Assembly (NCBI RefSeq): GCF_001531445.1
Contig: NZ_LQYA01000004.1
Coordinates: 1-64,000 of the forward strand
Length of the DNA: 64,000 nucleotides
From: Sporosarcina koreensis
GTDB lineage: Bacteria > Bacillota > Bacilli > Bacillales_A > Planococcaceae
Direction: 5' to 3'
Shown: positions 10,335 to 40,516 of the stretch, in pieces
Position numbering within the stretch: position 1 is the first letter of the stretch
Layout: every line of letters starts with the position of its first letter
The notes under the pieces: model-generated
The model's database searches: none
What the model was told of the DNA's origin: nothing
Seen by the model: the letters and a program-made list of their open reading frames with translations, nothing else
Translations under genes and position numbers: made by a program

Positions 10335-10427
10335 ATGTGGTTCCTATACATCATGTACGCGCTGTTCGCTTTTATCATCCTTGGTACAACATTTGGTCTT
10401 GTCAGCACATTCAACAATCATAAGTGA
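10335..10427 (+). CDS. 30-aa single-span membrane peptide
   Basis: A 30-codon frame starts with ATG behind AAAAGGAGTGAAG and ends directly in a terminator hairpin. The product begins MWFLYIMYALFAFIILG, is almost wholly hydrophobic to about residue 24, and ends in the polar FNNHK. A good ribosome site, a stop inside the hairpin and its own terminator support a real gene. I do not recognise it. It lies between the decayed NERD gene and the propeptide/receptor pair on the other strand. Confidence 0.6.
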   Translation: MWFLYIMYALFAFIILGTTFGLVSTFNNHK

Positions 10428-10476: not shown

Positions 10477-10516
10477 AAAAGGTGTCCCGCACCCGAAGAG
10501 CTGGGGACACCTTTTT
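10477..10516. terminator. Terminator after the propeptide gene
   Basis: AAAAGGTGTCCC (10477-10488) and GGGACACCTTTT (10504-10515) form a perfect 12-bp stem flanked by A and T runs, directly after the stop of the 52-aa propeptide gene. Confidence 0.85.
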
Positions 10517-10517
10517 C

Positions 10518-10676
10518 TTATGTTTGTGGAGGTAAGACCGATGGTGGAGTTAGATTGTCTTTACCTTTTGCGTTCGTCTCCATGCTGTCATTCGGTTCCA
10601 ATGCAAATCCAGTTCCCATTCCAGCAAATGCGGCAAACATTGCTGTTAGTAAAATAATGGTGATCTTCCGTTTCAT
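10518..10676 (-). CDS. Exported 52-aa propeptide, probable signalling peptide precursor
   Basis: A 52-aa product with a classic export signal: basic start MKRK, hydrophobic core ITIILLTAMFAAFAGMG, and a polar tail of about 25 residues ending NLTPPSVLPPQT. Its ATG overlaps the stop of the receptor gene as ATGA, and a GGGAGAGAAGG site lies within the receptor's last codons, so the two are translationally coupled. This layout, a small exported precursor right behind an HTH-helical-repeat regulator, is that of PlcR-PapR and NprR-NprX. I infer that a short C-terminal fragment, probably Pro-rich, is the signal. Too short for most gene callers. Confidence 0.75.
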   Translation of the reverse strand: MKRKITIILLTAMFAAFAGMGTGFALEPNDSMETNAKGKDNLTPPSVLPPQT

Positions 10677-11911
10677 AATTCCTTCTCTCCCTTGTCATAA
10701 TGATACAAACTATACACTCCCGCTTTTTCGTAATCACCGATGGAGCGGTAATAGTTTGCCAACCTCCATGCGATACTTCTTGCTTCCCCTATATAATCAT
10801 GTTTCTTCAGAAAAGGAAATGCTATTTGTTCACAATAGTTTAAAAGTTCCTGTTGGGAAATTTTAGTCTTTCTAAAGTAATCCAACTGCACCTTTAAATA
10901 CGGGTCTTTTTTCCTTCCCGCTAATACTTCCAATTCATCAAGAAGAGAATCGATCTCTTTATTTTCCTCAACCGCTGTTTGCAATAAATGAATGAGGACT
11001 GCTTGATATAAATCGGCACCCGGTTCCAAAAGCGCCTTCAATTCTTTCAACATATCATATGCCGAGCTATGAAGCTCCCTTCTATTTTGCAACATGGAAT
11101 AGTTATAGAGTGCCCCCTGATACAACTGTTCCATCTGCATCATCCTGGCATTTCGAAGGATAGTTTTGAACAAACCATCCGCCTGCAGGATGAAATCTCG
11201 GTTTGTATAGTTAATGGCCAACAGAAGCTGTGCATGAAGAAGACGGATGTAATTAGAGTCTTTCCGGAAATGGTCGACAGCCATTTCTGCATAGTAAGTC
11301 GACTTGCTATATTGTGCTCTGTTATGAAGCAAATAGGCTCTTTGATAAAACAGTTCCCCCTCGAACATATGGGGAATCCGTTCACGGAATTCCTCTATCC
11401 TTTCCAAGCGATTTTCCGCTTCTGTAAAATTTTGCAAGAAGATATCGTAAATAAGATAAATGACTTTCGATACGCCTTTTTCATATTCCGTGAAGGATGT
11501 CTCCATTCGTTTCAAGATGGAAACTTGTTGTGTCGCGCGAGGCGTGTCCTGTTTGAATAAAAAATAACGCAATTTGTAGAGCTCATATCGATTCACCAAG
11601 TCCGTCGATTGCAAATAGTCTTCATGCGCGGAAAGTTCTTTGTATCCCTCTTCCATCGCTTTCAAGTCATAGTAGACCGAATGCATGATGAATGTTTCCA
11701 ACTTCTCTTTCCAGCCTTCGTATATATCCACTTCACGCTCCCATTCAATGCCCATCCGTTTGAACAGTTCATTGATTGTTTCGTTATGGGGAATGTATTT
11801 ATTCGACTCGATTTTACTTAAATGGGAGATGGAGCATACGCCTTTACAAAGCTCGGCCTGTGTCAAATTGTTTCTCATTCTGTAGTATTTTAGGATGGAT
11901 CCGATATTCAT
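10673..11911 (-). CDS. RRNPP-type transcription regulator (HTH plus helical repeats), peptide receptor
   Basis: About 412 aa. The N-terminus is an XRE helix-turn-helix (IGSILKYYRMRNNLTQAEL, then SISHLSKIESNKYIP). The remaining ~340 residues are continuous helical repeats with TPR-like spacing, for example the closing stretch ANYYRSIGDYEKAGVYSLYHY. This is the architecture and length of PlcR/NprR-like receptors that bind a re-imported peptide. The frame opens at a GTG at 11920 that is part of the AAGGGGGTG ribosome site; ATG at 11914 or 11911 is more likely. The next gene is a coupled 52-aa exported precursor. Targets are unknown; autoregulation is likely by analogy. Confidence 0.85.
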   Translation of the reverse strand: MNIGSILKYYRMRNNLTQAELCKGVCSISHLSKIESNKYIPHNETINELFKRMGIEWEREVDIYEGWKEKLETFIMHSVYYDLKAMEEGYKELSAHEDYLQSTDLVNRYELYKLRYFLFKQDTPRATQQVSILKRMETSFTEYEKGVSKVIYLIYDIFLQNFTEAENRLERIEEFRERIPHMFEGELFYQRAYLLHNRAQYSKSTYYAEMAVDHFRKDSNYIRLLHAQLLLAINYTNRDFILQADGLFKTILRNARMMQMEQLYQGALYNYSMLQNRRELHSSAYDMLKELKALLEPGADLYQAVLIHLLQTAVEENKEIDSLLDELEVLAGRKKDPYLKVQLDYFRKTKISQQELLNYCEQIAFPFLKKHDYIGEARSIAWRLANYYRSIGDYEKAGVYSLYHYDKGEKEL

Positions 11912-12280
11912 CATTAGCACCCCCTTAATAATTTCTTACTATTCGAACATATCACGTTATATACATGAATACATGAGAAAACAGTCCCAGGGGAGTAAGG
12001 GACTGTTTTCAGCCTAATGTATGGGATTTTCATTAGGAGGCTATGTTGATTTTCTTTCAAAAAGCATTTTTCTAGTATTGCTAACTTTACTGTATCAGAT
12101 ATGTTCACTATAGGAAATTGGGAAAAATACGATAGGAATCGACAGCTTTCGCGACTGTGGTCTCTATCTATCCACCCCTAAGAAGGTGTTTGTTTAAATC
12201 CAAAGAACTAGAAAACACCGGCCATTGATGCGGCCGGTGTTGGGCAAATTGTGGAATCCCTATTTGATTATACCTACCAA
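11912..12280. other. Intergenic stretch with three hairpins, no convincing gene
   Basis: It holds a terminator-like stem (AAAACAGTCCC at 11978-11988 with GGGACTGTTTT at 11999-12009), a second inverted repeat (CCTAATG 12013-12019, CATTAGG 12031-12037) and the terminator of the ABC permease gene. The receptor promoter should lie in 11921-11975. A 9-codon frame after AGGAGG at 12036 is too close to its ribosome site to call. Confidence 0.6.
12211..12241 (-). terminator. Terminator of the GntR/ABC operon
   Basis: AACACCGGCC (12214-12223) pairs perfectly with GGCCGGTGTT (12232-12241); a GTTTTC run follows on the minus strand, 40 bases past the last gene of the operon. Confidence 0.8.
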
Positions 12281-28814: not shown

Positions 28815-30482
28815 TTAGTTCTTATCTGCGTATTTCAAGTCGACATAGCCGACAGGGTGGCGCAGGATACCGGATACGCCCGGTTTTTCAAGTGATGTCG
28901 AGTTGTAGAAGTATAATGGGAATACAGGCATTTCATCCATTAGAAGCGTATCTGCCTGCATCAGCAATTCCCAACGTTTGTTTTCGTCCGTTTCATTTTT
29001 AATGTCTGCAATGAGCTTATCGTATTCCGCGTTCGACCATGTCGTACGGTTCATGGAAGAGTCAGTGATAAAGCTTTCAAGCGCGTTCACAGGATCCGCA
29101 TAGTCATGCAGGAATGAGGAACGGGACATTTGGTATTTGAACTCTTTTTGCTCGGAAAGGAATACTCCGCTTTCCACGTTTTGCAGCTCGGCGTCAACCC
29201 CTAGTACTTCCTTGAACTTGGATTGAAGAGCAATTGCGATGTTCTGATGCGATTCGCTTGTTGAATAGGAAAGTGTCACTTTCGGAAGTTCCGTATAGCC
29301 TTCCTCTTTCATTCCTTCTTCCAAAAGCTGTTTCGCTGTTTCCGGATTGTAGGAAACGAGGTCGCCTACCGTTTCACGGAATTCTTTCCCGTCTGGTCCG
29401 ATAAATCCATATGTGACGAAGCCATGAGCCGGCTTCTCCCCATTCTTCGTTACAAAATTGACGATTTCCTCTTGATCAACCGCAAATGCGAATGCTTGAC
29501 GGATCTTTTTGTTCGTGAATGGTTCCATCGATGTGTTGAAGCGATAGAAATACAAGCCCGCTTGGTCATCGATGCGAAGCTCTTCGCTATCCTTCAATTG
29601 ATCTGCAATTTCCGACGGTACACCTGTCACATCCAACTCATTTGCTTGGTACATTTGATAGGCAGTTGTATCGTCGTTTACCATCGCCCAGTGGACTTTA
29701 TCCAACTTGACTGCACCCGCATCCCAATAATGTTCGTTCTTTTCAAACTCGAAGCTGACATCATGGCTCCATGCAGCCAATTTAAACGGCCCATTCCCTA
29801 CGAATGTTGCGGCTTCTGTATGCCACTTCGGATCTGCGGATGCCACTTTTTCGTTGATCGGGAAGAAGCTTGGATTTGTGATGATATTCAAGAATGCTTC
29901 GTTCGGTGACGTCAATTTGACGACGAACGTCTTTTCATCTTGCGCTTCGATCGCGATGTCATCAGCGGAGCCTTCGCCGGTGTTGTATTCTTCCGCTCCT
30001 TCGATGAAGTAGGCAAGGAATGCTGCAGGTGACGCTGTTTCCGGGTTCAACATATGCTTCCAGGCGAATACGAAATCGCCGGCTACGACCGGATCACCGT
30101 TCGACCATTTCGCGTTATCGCGGATTGTGAATGTATATGTTAATCCGTCATCGGAGATATCGATTTTTTCAGCTGTCGCCTCGACCGCTTTGTGATCTTC
30201 ATCCATGCGCGTTAGACCTTCCATAATATTGTTAAGCGCGCTCCAGGATACTGCGTTGAAGCCGATGGAAGGATCGAACGATGTCGGCTCTTCCCCATTG
30301 TTCATTAAGAGTATTTTCTCTCCGGAAGTCGCTTCCTCTGTCTTGCCTTCTTCTTTTCCTTCATCCGTCGACGTCGTATCCGCCGGTTCTTCCGGCTCCT
30401 TGCCTGCATCCTTGTTTGCAGTACATGCCGCAAGAACGAGCGCAAGCATAGCCACCATCAAAAATGTCAACCATTTCTTCAT
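28815..30482 (-). CDS. dppE: Oligo/dipeptide ABC transporter substrate-binding lipoprotein DppE
   Basis: A 555-aa family 5 solute-binding lipoprotein. The signal and lipobox (MVAMLALVLAACTANKD) anchor it to the outer face of the membrane; then an acidic linker (EPEEPADTTSTDEGKEEGK) and the SBP_bac_5 domain with FTIRDNAKWSNGDPVVAGDF and NPSFFPIN. By position it is DppE of the dppABCDE-ykf operon and delivers peptides, including murein peptides, to DppBC. Confidence 0.92.
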   Translation of the reverse strand: MKKWLTFLMVAMLALVLAACTANKDAGKEPEEPADTTSTDEGKEEGKTEEATSGEKILLMNNGEEPTSFDPSIGFNAVSWSALNNIMEGLTRMDEDHKAVEATAEKIDISDDGLTYTFTIRDNAKWSNGDPVVAGDFVFAWKHMLNPETASPAAFLAYFIEGAEEYNTGEGSADDIAIEAQDEKTFVVKLTSPNEAFLNIITNPSFFPINEKVASADPKWHTEAATFVGNGPFKLAAWSHDVSFEFEKNEHYWDAGAVKLDKVHWAMVNDDTTAYQMYQANELDVTGVPSEIADQLKDSEELRIDDQAGLYFYRFNTSMEPFTNKKIRQAFAFAVDQEEIVNFVTKNGEKPAHGFVTYGFIGPDGKEFRETVGDLVSYNPETAKQLLEEGMKEEGYTELPKVTLSYSTSESHQNIAIALQSKFKEVLGVDAELQNVESGVFLSEQKEFKYQMSRSSFLHDYADPVNALESFITDSSMNRTTWSNAEYDKLIADIKNETDENKRWELLMQADTLLMDEMPVFPLYFYNSTSLEKPGVSGILRHPVGYVDLKYADKN

Positions 30483-38680: not shown

Positions 38681-40516
38681 TTATTCAGTTACGCCCCACT
38701 TCCACAGACGAAGGTCTGTGCCTGTTTCGATAGAGTAGTTTGTAACACGCTTGTTAACACCCATTAGGTAGTAACGGAATACTGTTGGTGCAACTGGAAC
38801 TTCATCAACCATGAGCTGTTGCCATTCGCTGAACTTTCCAGCACGGTATTCAGAATCCAAGGACTGCTCGCCTGAGATAGCATCAAGAAGCTCAGTGTTC
38901 TTATCGCTTGTAAAACGAGTATAGTTGAACGCAGCATCTTTACCATATAGACCAGATGGGTTCGGGTCAGAACCAACACTCCAAGCACCTTGGTAGATAT
39001 CGATATCCGGATCGTCAGCCTCTACTCTATCATAGAACGAGTTGAACTCATGCAGACGCCCTTCAAGAAGTTGTACTTTAATACCTACGTCAGCCCAGTT
39101 TTGCATGTAGAACTGTGCAATCGGCTCAGCAGTTTCTCCACCTGACATGGAAGCGAAGTTAAGAACGAATTGCTCACCTTTGTCGTTTTCACGGAAACCA
39201 TCTCCGTCAACGTCAACATATCCAGCTTCGTCAAGAAGTGCTTTCGCCTTCTCAGGGTCATAAGATGGTGTTTCAATGCTTGAATCATGGAAAGTAGAGA
39301 ATACAGGTACAATTAGAGTTGTCGCTGGGAAACGAAGACCGTGATAAAGTTCTTTACCGATTGTTTCGTTGTCCATTGCGTACCACATAGCTTGACGAAC
39401 AAGTTTGTTACCCATTTTTGCGTTGGGATCAGTTACGTTTGTTTTGTTATCTGCATCCCATTTACCAAGTTTGAACCCAATGTACGTATAGGCAATATCA
39501 ACTTCCGCTAGCAATTCGATATTATCGACTTCTTTAGCGTTCAAGTACTGGTCAACTGGAACCGAAGCGATATCTACATCGCCTTTCTTAAGTGCTTCAA
39601 GAATAGACGCAGAGCTTACTACTTTCAATACGATTGAATCTAGCTGAGGTTTGCCTCTCCAGTAATCATCGTTGCGCTCATAAAGAACAGATTCACCCGG
39701 TACGATTTTTGCAATTTTGTATGGTCCAAAACCGATAGGGTTTGTGCGGATTTTATCAGAAGCAGCAAGTTCTTCAATCGTAAGTTCACCTGTCATAACA
39801 TCTCCGACATGGTGTCTTGGTGTTGGATAAGCCCAAATACCTGACAATAGTGACGGAGTCGCTTCAGTGTAAGTGATTGTAATTGTTTTGTCATCATCAG
39901 AAATCTTAATACCGGAAATTTCAGTTGTTTCACCGTTATGGTATGCAGGCATACCTTCAACGTTTTCGATCATGAATGTGTAACGAGTTCCCGTGTAGTC
40001 AGGGTGACCAAGTAATTGGTAAGAGTAAAGAAGGTCGCTTGCTTTAACAGGCTCGCCATCATGCCAGTTTACATTATCACCGATTTTGATTGTAATCGAT
40101 TTTTTATCATCAGAAACTTCGTATGTTGCAGCGCCGTCATTAGTGATCAAGAAGTCGCCATCAGTAGTGAACAAGTTTTCATCAAAAAAGCTCAATACAG
40201 TGGAATCTGGTGTACCAGAATATAAGACTCGGCTTAGAGTACCTTCGAATGGAGTGTCGGAAACAAGTGCATAGTTCAACTCTCCACCATCGATTGGAGT
40301 TCCTGTGTTAGAAACTGTCAGTGGGAACTCTAGACCCGCGTTCGGATCATCAACTTCCTCTGGATCCTCTTCATTTTCTGTTCCTTCTGTTTTCTCTGGA
40401 TCTTTAGATGGTTCTTTCTCAGTAGCACCATCTTTGTCTTTGCCTGTACATGCAGCTAAAAATACGCTGAGAACAAGCAATAGACTTGCAAGTAGCATAA
40501 ATTGCTTCTTTGCCAA
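38681..40516 (-). CDS. oppA: Oligopeptide ABC transporter substrate-binding lipoprotein
   Basis: A 611-aa family 5 solute-binding lipoprotein. Signal and lipobox MLLASLLLVLSVFLAACTGKD; a very acidic linker follows (KEPSKDPEKTEGTENEEDPE), then the SBP_bac_5 domain (KIGDNVNWHDGEPVKASDL, IRTNPIGFGPYKIAKI). Last gene of an oppDFBCA operon, with a TTG start at 40516 behind GGGGAGG. Base composition is a little more AT-rich than in its neighbours, as is usual for highly expressed lipoproteins here. The second peptide transporter of this window. Confidence 0.9.
   Translation of the reverse strand: MAKKQFMLLASLLLVLSVFLAACTGKDKDGATEKEPSKDPEKTEGTENEEDPEEVDDPNAGLEFPLTVSNTGTPIDGGELNYALVSDTPFEGTLSRVLYSGTPDSTVLSFFDENLFTTDGDFLITNDGAATYEVSDDKKSITIKIGDNVNWHDGEPVKASDLLYSYQLLGHPDYTGTRYTFMIENVEGMPAYHNGETTEISGIKISDDDKTITITYTEATPSLLSGIWAYPTPRHHVGDVMTGELTIEELAASDKIRTNPIGFGPYKIAKIVPGESVLYERNDDYWRGKPQLDSIVLKVVSSASILEALKKGDVDIASVPVDQYLNAKEVDNIELLAEVDIAYTYIGFKLGKWDADNKTNVTDPNAKMGNKLVRQAMWYAMDNETIGKELYHGLRFPATTLIVPVFSTFHDSSIETPSYDPEKAKALLDEAGYVDVDGDGFRENDKGEQFVLNFASMSGGETAEPIAQFYMQNWADVGIKVQLLEGRLHEFNSFYDRVEADDPDIDIYQGAWSVGSDPNPSGLYGKDAAFNYTRFTSDKNTELLDAISGEQSLDSEYRAGKFSEWQQLMVDEVPVAPTVFRYYLMGVNKRVTNYSIETGTDLRLWKWGVTE

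Follow-up and report, generated by a model that had tools for sequence, protein, structure and literature searches.

The window, by which we mean the whole 64,000-nucleotide stretch of Sporosarcina koreensis DNA that was analysed, carries on its minus strand a 413-codon reading frame plus stop (10673-11914) for a receptor of the RRNPP type, and, overlapping the end of that gene, a small frame for a predicted exported propeptide. The two genes, their domains and the possible routes of peptide import are laid out as follows:

10673..11914, minus strand: receptor gene, XRE-type HTH, three-helix bundle and TPR superhelix (NprR/Rap architecture), 413 aa
11744..11893, minus strand: HTH_3 DNA-binding domain, receptor residues 8-57 (Pfam E 3.1e-7, above the Pfam cut-off)
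10712..11728, minus strand: peptide-sensing body, receptor residues 63-401, aligned to NprR chains 5dbk/4gpk
10518..10676, minus strand: 52-aa propeptide, predicted exported, ATGA overlap with the receptor gene
10602..10676, minus strand: putative signal peptide, propeptide residues 1-25, from its basic start and hydrophobic run
10521..10547, minus strand: predicted pheromone region PPSVLPPQT, propeptide residues 44-52
about 10477..10516, minus strand: intrinsic terminator 3' of the propeptide, GC hairpin and T-run, found by eye
29055..30185, minus strand: SBP_bac_5 oligopeptide-binding protein, possible import route (context only)
38942..40132, minus strand: SBP_bac_5 oligopeptide-binding protein, possible import route (context only)

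Since the NprR chains in the PDB lack an HTH, we compared the HTH and the body of the receptor separately. Residues 63-401 of the window receptor match NprR at E 5.5e-7 (phmmer), and a family profile of 74 aligned sequences (alignment A1, 74 of the 104 receptor sequences available) matches NprR 4gpk at E 4.9e-55. NprR ranks first with this profile and Rap next among natural regulators, with PlcR far below and designed TPR proteins in between. HTH_3 is found in 73/74 aligned family members and TPR_12 in 34/74; the window receptor itself gives no Pfam match to a TPR. Its AlphaFold model (pLDDT 93.7, pTM 0.88) is all-helical after the HTH, the best Foldseek match is NprR 5dbk, and NprR and Rap structures, several with bound peptide, head the PDB matches. 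A sequence-only reading of this locus had described an XRE HTH followed by helical repeats; the HTH_3 match, the all-helical model and the NprR match bear this out, and the layout of HTH, three-helix bundle and TPR body is that of NprR.

The receptor gene ends in ...GAA TTA TGA, overlapping the ATG AAA CGG that opens the 52-codon frame. GGAGAGAAGGAATT stands directly before this frame, whose product begins with MKRKITIILLTAMFAAFAGMGTGFA and ends in TPPSVLPPQT. A Sec signal is predicted from the basic N-terminus and hydrophobic run by a hydropathy rule, and a polar linker of about 17 residues separates it from the tail. The ATGA-coupled frame with ribosome site, signal, tail and terminator could all be located in the sequence as described in the earlier reading, and its two peptide importers correspond to the two SBP_bac_5 (Opp/Dpp-type) binding proteins; in the whole genome, 20 matched stretches of SBP_bac_5 are listed. 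Facing the propeptide on the plus strand (window 10335-10427) lies a 30-codon hydrophobic ORF (MWFLYIMYALFAFIILGTTFGLVSTFNNHK), the C-terminal part of which recurs with few substitutions at 8/17 Sporosarcina loci and which is a predicted conserved small membrane protein.

Receptors were scored as present at E<=1e-20, which matched 99/261 genomes of the family. With an orthologue limit of 100 bits, 91 loci were counted: 17 in Sporosarcina, 43 in the sister genus g37 and 31 more distant. The tail test required a signal-like ORF downstream of the receptor with [VILM]xPP in its last 16 residues. An adjacent signal-bearing ORF with a [VILM]xPPx tail is present at 87/91 loci (Sporosarcina 17/17, g37 43/43, more distant 27/31), compared with 3/4,550 shuffled downstream regions, a ratio that is optimistic because the tail pattern and the 100-bit limit were set after the peptides had been inspected. 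Signal-like ORFs of any kind occur in 856/4,550 shuffled regions; adjacency of such an ORF is therefore weak evidence in itself, and it is the common tail that carries the argument. Among the four misses, L102 has a peptide (...SVPVHPPV) that the filter passed over, L098 holds decayed remains, and L014 and L113 resemble distant paralogues. A PP tail is absent from all 20 loci that score below 100 bits (0/20), which fall outside the 91 and include the receptors of G007, G010, G020 and G025. The suggestion that receptor and peptide are always adjacent thus describes the orthologues but does not extend to weaker homologues, and the pairing is particular to the subfamily rather than general to NprR-like receptors. 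Peptide counts omit L033 and L034 (same genomes as L008 and L035), and the peptide data exclude the receptor genomes G135, G136, G213, G216 and G224.

These data support a complete signalling pair with a Pro-rich C-terminal signal. The cassette had been ascribed to this genus; 17 Sporosarcina genomes do carry it, yet it is neither universal there (17/68 genomes examined) nor confined to the genus. The pair is present in 43/46 genomes of g37, and in all the tail occurs in eight genera of the family besides Sporosarcina and in one further family. A class-wide sample of 398 genomes yielded receptors in another family, f33 (G493, G350), with tails MPPILPPA and MPPIQPPV; at the other non-family loci inspected (L217, L220, L222, L225) no such tail was found.

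The 52-codon region is coding, as first proposed: no stops or frameshifts occur in it among Sporosarcina relatives, and the small ORF is under purifying selection, with a peptide dN/dS of 0.03-0.49, mostly 0.05-0.25, in pairs with measurable dS, other pairs being saturated. Receptor dN/dS values leave out pairs with differing start codons, which are misaligned. The core P-x-[VI]-[LM]-P-P occurs in 15/17 Sporosarcina and 43/43 g37 peptides and in 0/28 of the others, most of which are PIxPP-like. Sporosarcina tails include PSVLPPQT, PSILPPQV, PTILPPQ(C/V) and PDVMPPQ; those of g37 include PNVLPPI/L, PQVLPPV/L, PHVLPPF/V, PTILPPL and PHILPPL; elsewhere we find IPIHPPIG, IPIYPPVL, IPILPPIG and others. 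Tail types are clade-specific on the receptor tree (a quick tree of 90 rows, on which full tails change 38 times and the residue preceding V/I 12 times), so that tail and receptor vary together as had been anticipated. In L101, L055 and L045 the precursor consists of a signal peptide and PP tail alone (29-33 residues). Tandem copies of the tail are present in the propeptides of L093, L095, L096 and L099, IPIHPPIG three times or FPIHPPIL four times, and NprR propeptides are known to contain pheromone repeats (PMC9765709).

For comparison with known systems we used the five-criterion RRNPP signature of PMC10075063, which the pair fits in receptor length, TPR repeats and adjacent propeptide. At 413 aa the receptor lies inside the range of about 250-500 aa, its TPR body is supported by the structure model and the NprR/Rap matches, and the adjacent propeptide, at 52 aa with an ATGA overlap, falls within 10-100 aa. 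Its Sec export is predicted from hydropathy, and import and binding of the mature peptide would follow the pattern of the class.

Among characterized systems, NprR-NprX of the Bacillus cereus group is the closest, with the same HTH, three-helix bundle and TPR body and, as predicted here, an exoprotease as target. NprA is a neutral protease, and nprX adjoins nprR. NprR activates nprA expression (PMC4970707). The differences lie in the peptide (NprX is SSKPDIVG, in contrast to the PxVLPP core here), in the protease, which here is a subtilase, and in the shared element TTTTCCCAAT found here. At about 18% identity and with uncertain register, NprR R126, W167, H201, N306 and D309 align with window K121, N162, L196, A300 and Y303; Y165 and R343 are likewise unconserved at the aligned positions, and the NprR contact residues are not kept across the family. 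Of the Spo0F-contact positions (D107, Y118, E188, Y223), compared at the same identity of about 18%, Q102 and Y113 are compatible and M183 and K218 are not. An orthodox NprR was rejected: the architecture fits, but the NprX contacts are mostly unconserved. We file the locus as an RRNPP pair of NprR-like architecture that forms a separate subfamily.

PlcR-PapR, also of the Bacillus cereus group, combines an HTH-TPR activator with an adjacent exported propeptide and a nearby protease gene (NprB). The PlcR chain has 293 aa as opposed to 413 aa here, the profile matches it at E 1e-11 compared with 5e-55 for NprR, and the TM-score on the query is 0.31-0.39 for PlcR and 0.58-0.64 for NprR chains; membership of the PlcR family was rejected on length, sequence and fold. 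Rap-Phr of Bacillus shares the three-helix bundle and TPR fold, with peptide-bound Rap structures as the next best fold matches, but Rap lacks the HTH that nearly every member has here. A Gln at the RapH Q47 position (window Q102, codon 11609-11611, minus strand) is found in 16/16 Sporosarcina and 25/25 g37 rows of A1, and is not among the commonest residues in the rows of other genera; a phosphatase side-activity is possible in the Sporosarcina and g37 receptors, to judge from this residue. The window genome encodes a second NprR-like receptor, L002 (G000:C74:69993-70754, minus strand), with a downstream signal ORF ending ...VPKVMKAFSYTIQK; the peptide of its relative L028 in G002 ends ...FTIELLK, and L002 is probably a second pheromone pair with a different code.

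We inspected wide flanks in 40 genomes (17 Sporosarcina, 12 of the 43 g37 and 11 others), and in 35 of these a gene of 419-450 aa lies upstream of the receptor; Sporosarcina and g37 have it on the receptor strand, the other genera in divergent orientation. The three neighbour proteins scanned all contain Peptidase_S8 (3/3; Pfam E 1e-54 to 2e-50), the His and Ser patterns are present in 36/36 and the Asp-region pattern in 34/36. The L116 protease is closest to sphericase 1ea7 (phmmer E 2.3e-143) and the related subtilisin 2gko (E 1.8e-139), and the remaining neighbour proteases are at least 56% identical to it. What differs from sphericase is the setting, as the protease here adjoins an RRNPP-type receptor; literature titles and the openings of abstracts mention no regulator of sphericase/sfericase. 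In the f33 cassettes the same subtilase lies upstream of the receptor on the same strand.

Across the 261 genomes (protease cut-off E<=1e-110, receptor E<=1e-20), 85 have both genes, 14 the receptor only, 2 the protease only and 160 neither, a tally that ignores kinship. The protease lies less than 1 kb from the receptor in 84/87 protease genomes, 54 on the same and 30 on the opposite strand. Kinship inflates the co-occurrence p-value, and it is adjacency kept through a change of orientation that provides an argument beyond ancestry. One genome tallied as receptor-only, G121, has its protease cut by a contig end. In G185 the receptor (L098/L233) is intact, the peptide region is degenerate and there is no adjacent protease; absence of the protease here goes with a degenerate peptide, in an apparent case of circuit decay or of an eavesdropper. 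In L145 and L147 (genus g28) a second receptor-like gene directly follows the pair, spanning roughly +1509 to +2739 relative to the start of the receptor, with no apparent N-terminal HTH and no PP peptide of its own; it may be a Rap-like partner responding to the same pheromone.

The sequence-only reading recognized the pair and overlooked both the neighbouring exoprotease and the candidate operator, because the protease gene has been deleted in the window species. The remains of the gene, and its neighbour, are found upstream of the receptor:

12085..12126, minus strand: retained promoter of the deleted protease, with TTTTCCCAATT (12116-12126) and then TGATACAGT 19 bases after TTTCCCAAT; candidate receptor operator, beside a weak -35
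11977..12010, minus strand: hairpin GAAAACAGTCCC..GGGACTGTTTTC, the protease gene terminator in relatives; single occurrence of the stem pattern in the window genome
12281..13060, minus strand: ABC-type permease-like gene (context only)

The pattern TTTCCCAAT-N19-TGNTA is present in 36/36 protease promoters (35 distinct genomes; L034 is a repeat genome). TGNTA resembles an extended -10, and by eye the element abuts a weak -35. Its distance to the -10 is equal in both gene orientations, and in the divergent genera, again by eye, the receptor promoter has the same copy of the element between its -35 and -10. A tandem duplication of the protease in G160 has the element upstream of both copies. 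In f33, TTTCCCAA precedes the subtilase, and TGATA follows this site at 22 bases, where the spacing is otherwise 20. The 71 kb surrounding 18 distant NprR-like loci contain TTTTCCCAA 10 times (400 anagrams: mean 1.0, maximum 5). Three of these 10 sites are inside receptor genes; outside receptor ORFs there are 7 in 48.7 kb (400 anagrams: mean 0.68, maximum 4), which come from 5/18 loci, among them the close relatives L029 and L030. The enrichment at distant NprR-like loci suggests that the motif is tied to the receptor family, which it seems to track, and we infer that it is the binding site of the receptor, in the position expected of an activator. TTTTCCCAAT could belong to another regulator of the exoprotease; its enrichment at paralogue loci speaks against this.

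In the window genome as a whole, TTTTCCCAATT occurs 5 times compared with 4 for the reversed control, and operator plus promoter spacing 4 times compared with 7, so that no wider regulon is visible by this count. Of the four TTTTCCCAATT sites outside the window, two are intragenic and one (L159) has no clear gene downstream. The site at L156 (G000:C89:69358-69368, plus strand) lies about 70-90 bases before a 424-aa ORF that by eye resembles a Y-family DNA polymerase, and may reflect chance or mark a second target. A further operator candidate, the inverted repeat AAAACAGTCC..GGACTGTTTT a short way upstream of the receptor, was rejected: in g37 its two arms vary in concert and lead into a T-run, which identifies it as the terminator of the protease gene.

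Most protease-bearing Sporosarcina relatives have the protease gene flanked by the ABC permease-like gene and the receptor gene. The window species lacks the protease ORF in that interval and retains its promoter and terminator. The ORF is also missing in G004, G029, G227 and G011, making 5/17 Sporosarcina, and at E<=1e-110 no protease was found elsewhere in the five genomes. TTTCCCAAT is exact in 4/5 of these protease-less species and has one change in G004. Placed on the tree, the absences correspond to four separate losses of the protease, if regain is excluded. That 5/17 Sporosarcina keep the pair without the protease means that the protease cannot be the sole reason for its retention. Between L039 and L010, two related protease-less species, the peptide has a dS of 0.23 and an omega of 0.04, and this constraint suggests that the signal is useful beyond the protease.

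We interpret the locus as a member of an apparently undescribed RRNPP subfamily in which an xPPx pheromone activates an exoprotease, and give this reading a probability of roughly three in four. By analogy with known RRNPP families, the signal peptide would direct the propeptide out of the cell, where trimming would leave a C-terminal pheromone of 7-9 residues with the core P-x-[V/I]-[L/M]-P-P, in the window species PSVLPPQT or PPSVLPPQT. An oligopeptide permease would bring the pheromone back into the cell, where it would occupy the TPR groove of the receptor. With its ligand in place, the receptor is predicted to bind TTTTCCCAAT beside the weak -35 of the target promoter and, given this position, to activate rather than repress it. 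In most relatives the target would be the adjacent secreted sphericase-type subtilase, a product that cells share outside the cell; in the window species, where the protease ORF is deleted, the pair would have to act on its own locus or on other targets. We favour somewhat less firmly the fuller account, namely a new subfamily with an xPPx alphabet and a TTTTCCCAAT operator, forming a self-contained circuit of receptor, pheromone and exoprotease that has been kept through reorientation of the protease and in at least two families, and whose target was lost in four Sporosarcina lineages, including that of the window, while signalling was kept (the DNA site being intact in all but one) and the circuit re-used.

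The strongest competitor accepts the pair as genuine and places the TTTCCCAAT element and the protease under another regulator, adjacency reflecting a common neighbourhood and the receptor controlling other genes or acting mainly through protein contact as Rap does. The five Sporosarcina species that kept the pair without the protease, the L039-L010 constraint and the Gln at the RapH Q47 position all sit comfortably with it. The constant spacing to the -10 in both orientations, the location of the element within the region of the receptor promoter where the genes are divergent and its enrichment at distant NprR-like loci do not, and we consider this explanation unlikely. Less probable again is that the window cassette is an eavesdropper or a relic, decaying after loss of the protease with signalling at an end. 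The protease is indeed missing from the window genome at the threshold used, and G185 exemplifies joint decay of peptide and protease; in the window species, however, both genes of the pair are intact and the operator survives without a change, and the comparison of L001 with the protease-bearing L004 gives an omega of 0.13 (peptide) and 0.09 (receptor). That the 52-codon frame encodes a small secreted protein with a function of its own, as its linker might suggest, is very improbable, since elsewhere the frame is reduced to signal and PP tail or repeats the tail 3-4 times, which fits a precursor and not a folded protein.

A description of the activating, xPPx-type subfamily proposed here was not found in the literature searched, a search of texts apart from supplements and figures. 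By their titles, papers containing the tail strings concern unrelated subjects such as wheat and cereals, and RRNPP together with Sporosarcina gave no literature match; NprR and Lysinibacillus do co-occur, according to the listings. Planococc-, Sporosarcina, Lysinibacillus and Solibacillus are absent from the main texts of the RRNPP papers searched, PMC9765709 and PMC10075063 among them. One of the 21 novel clusters of PMC10075063 may correspond to the subfamily.

For the Planococcaceae, the finding adds a pheromone system with a predicted ligand, operator and target, each of which is directly testable. The predicted target, a secreted enzyme, is a classic public good, and the natural deletions of this target with the signalling pair kept constitute an evolutionary experiment on functional change in quorum sensing. 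The 90 receptor-tail pairs, with their several tail types, provide a data set for decoding peptide specificity.
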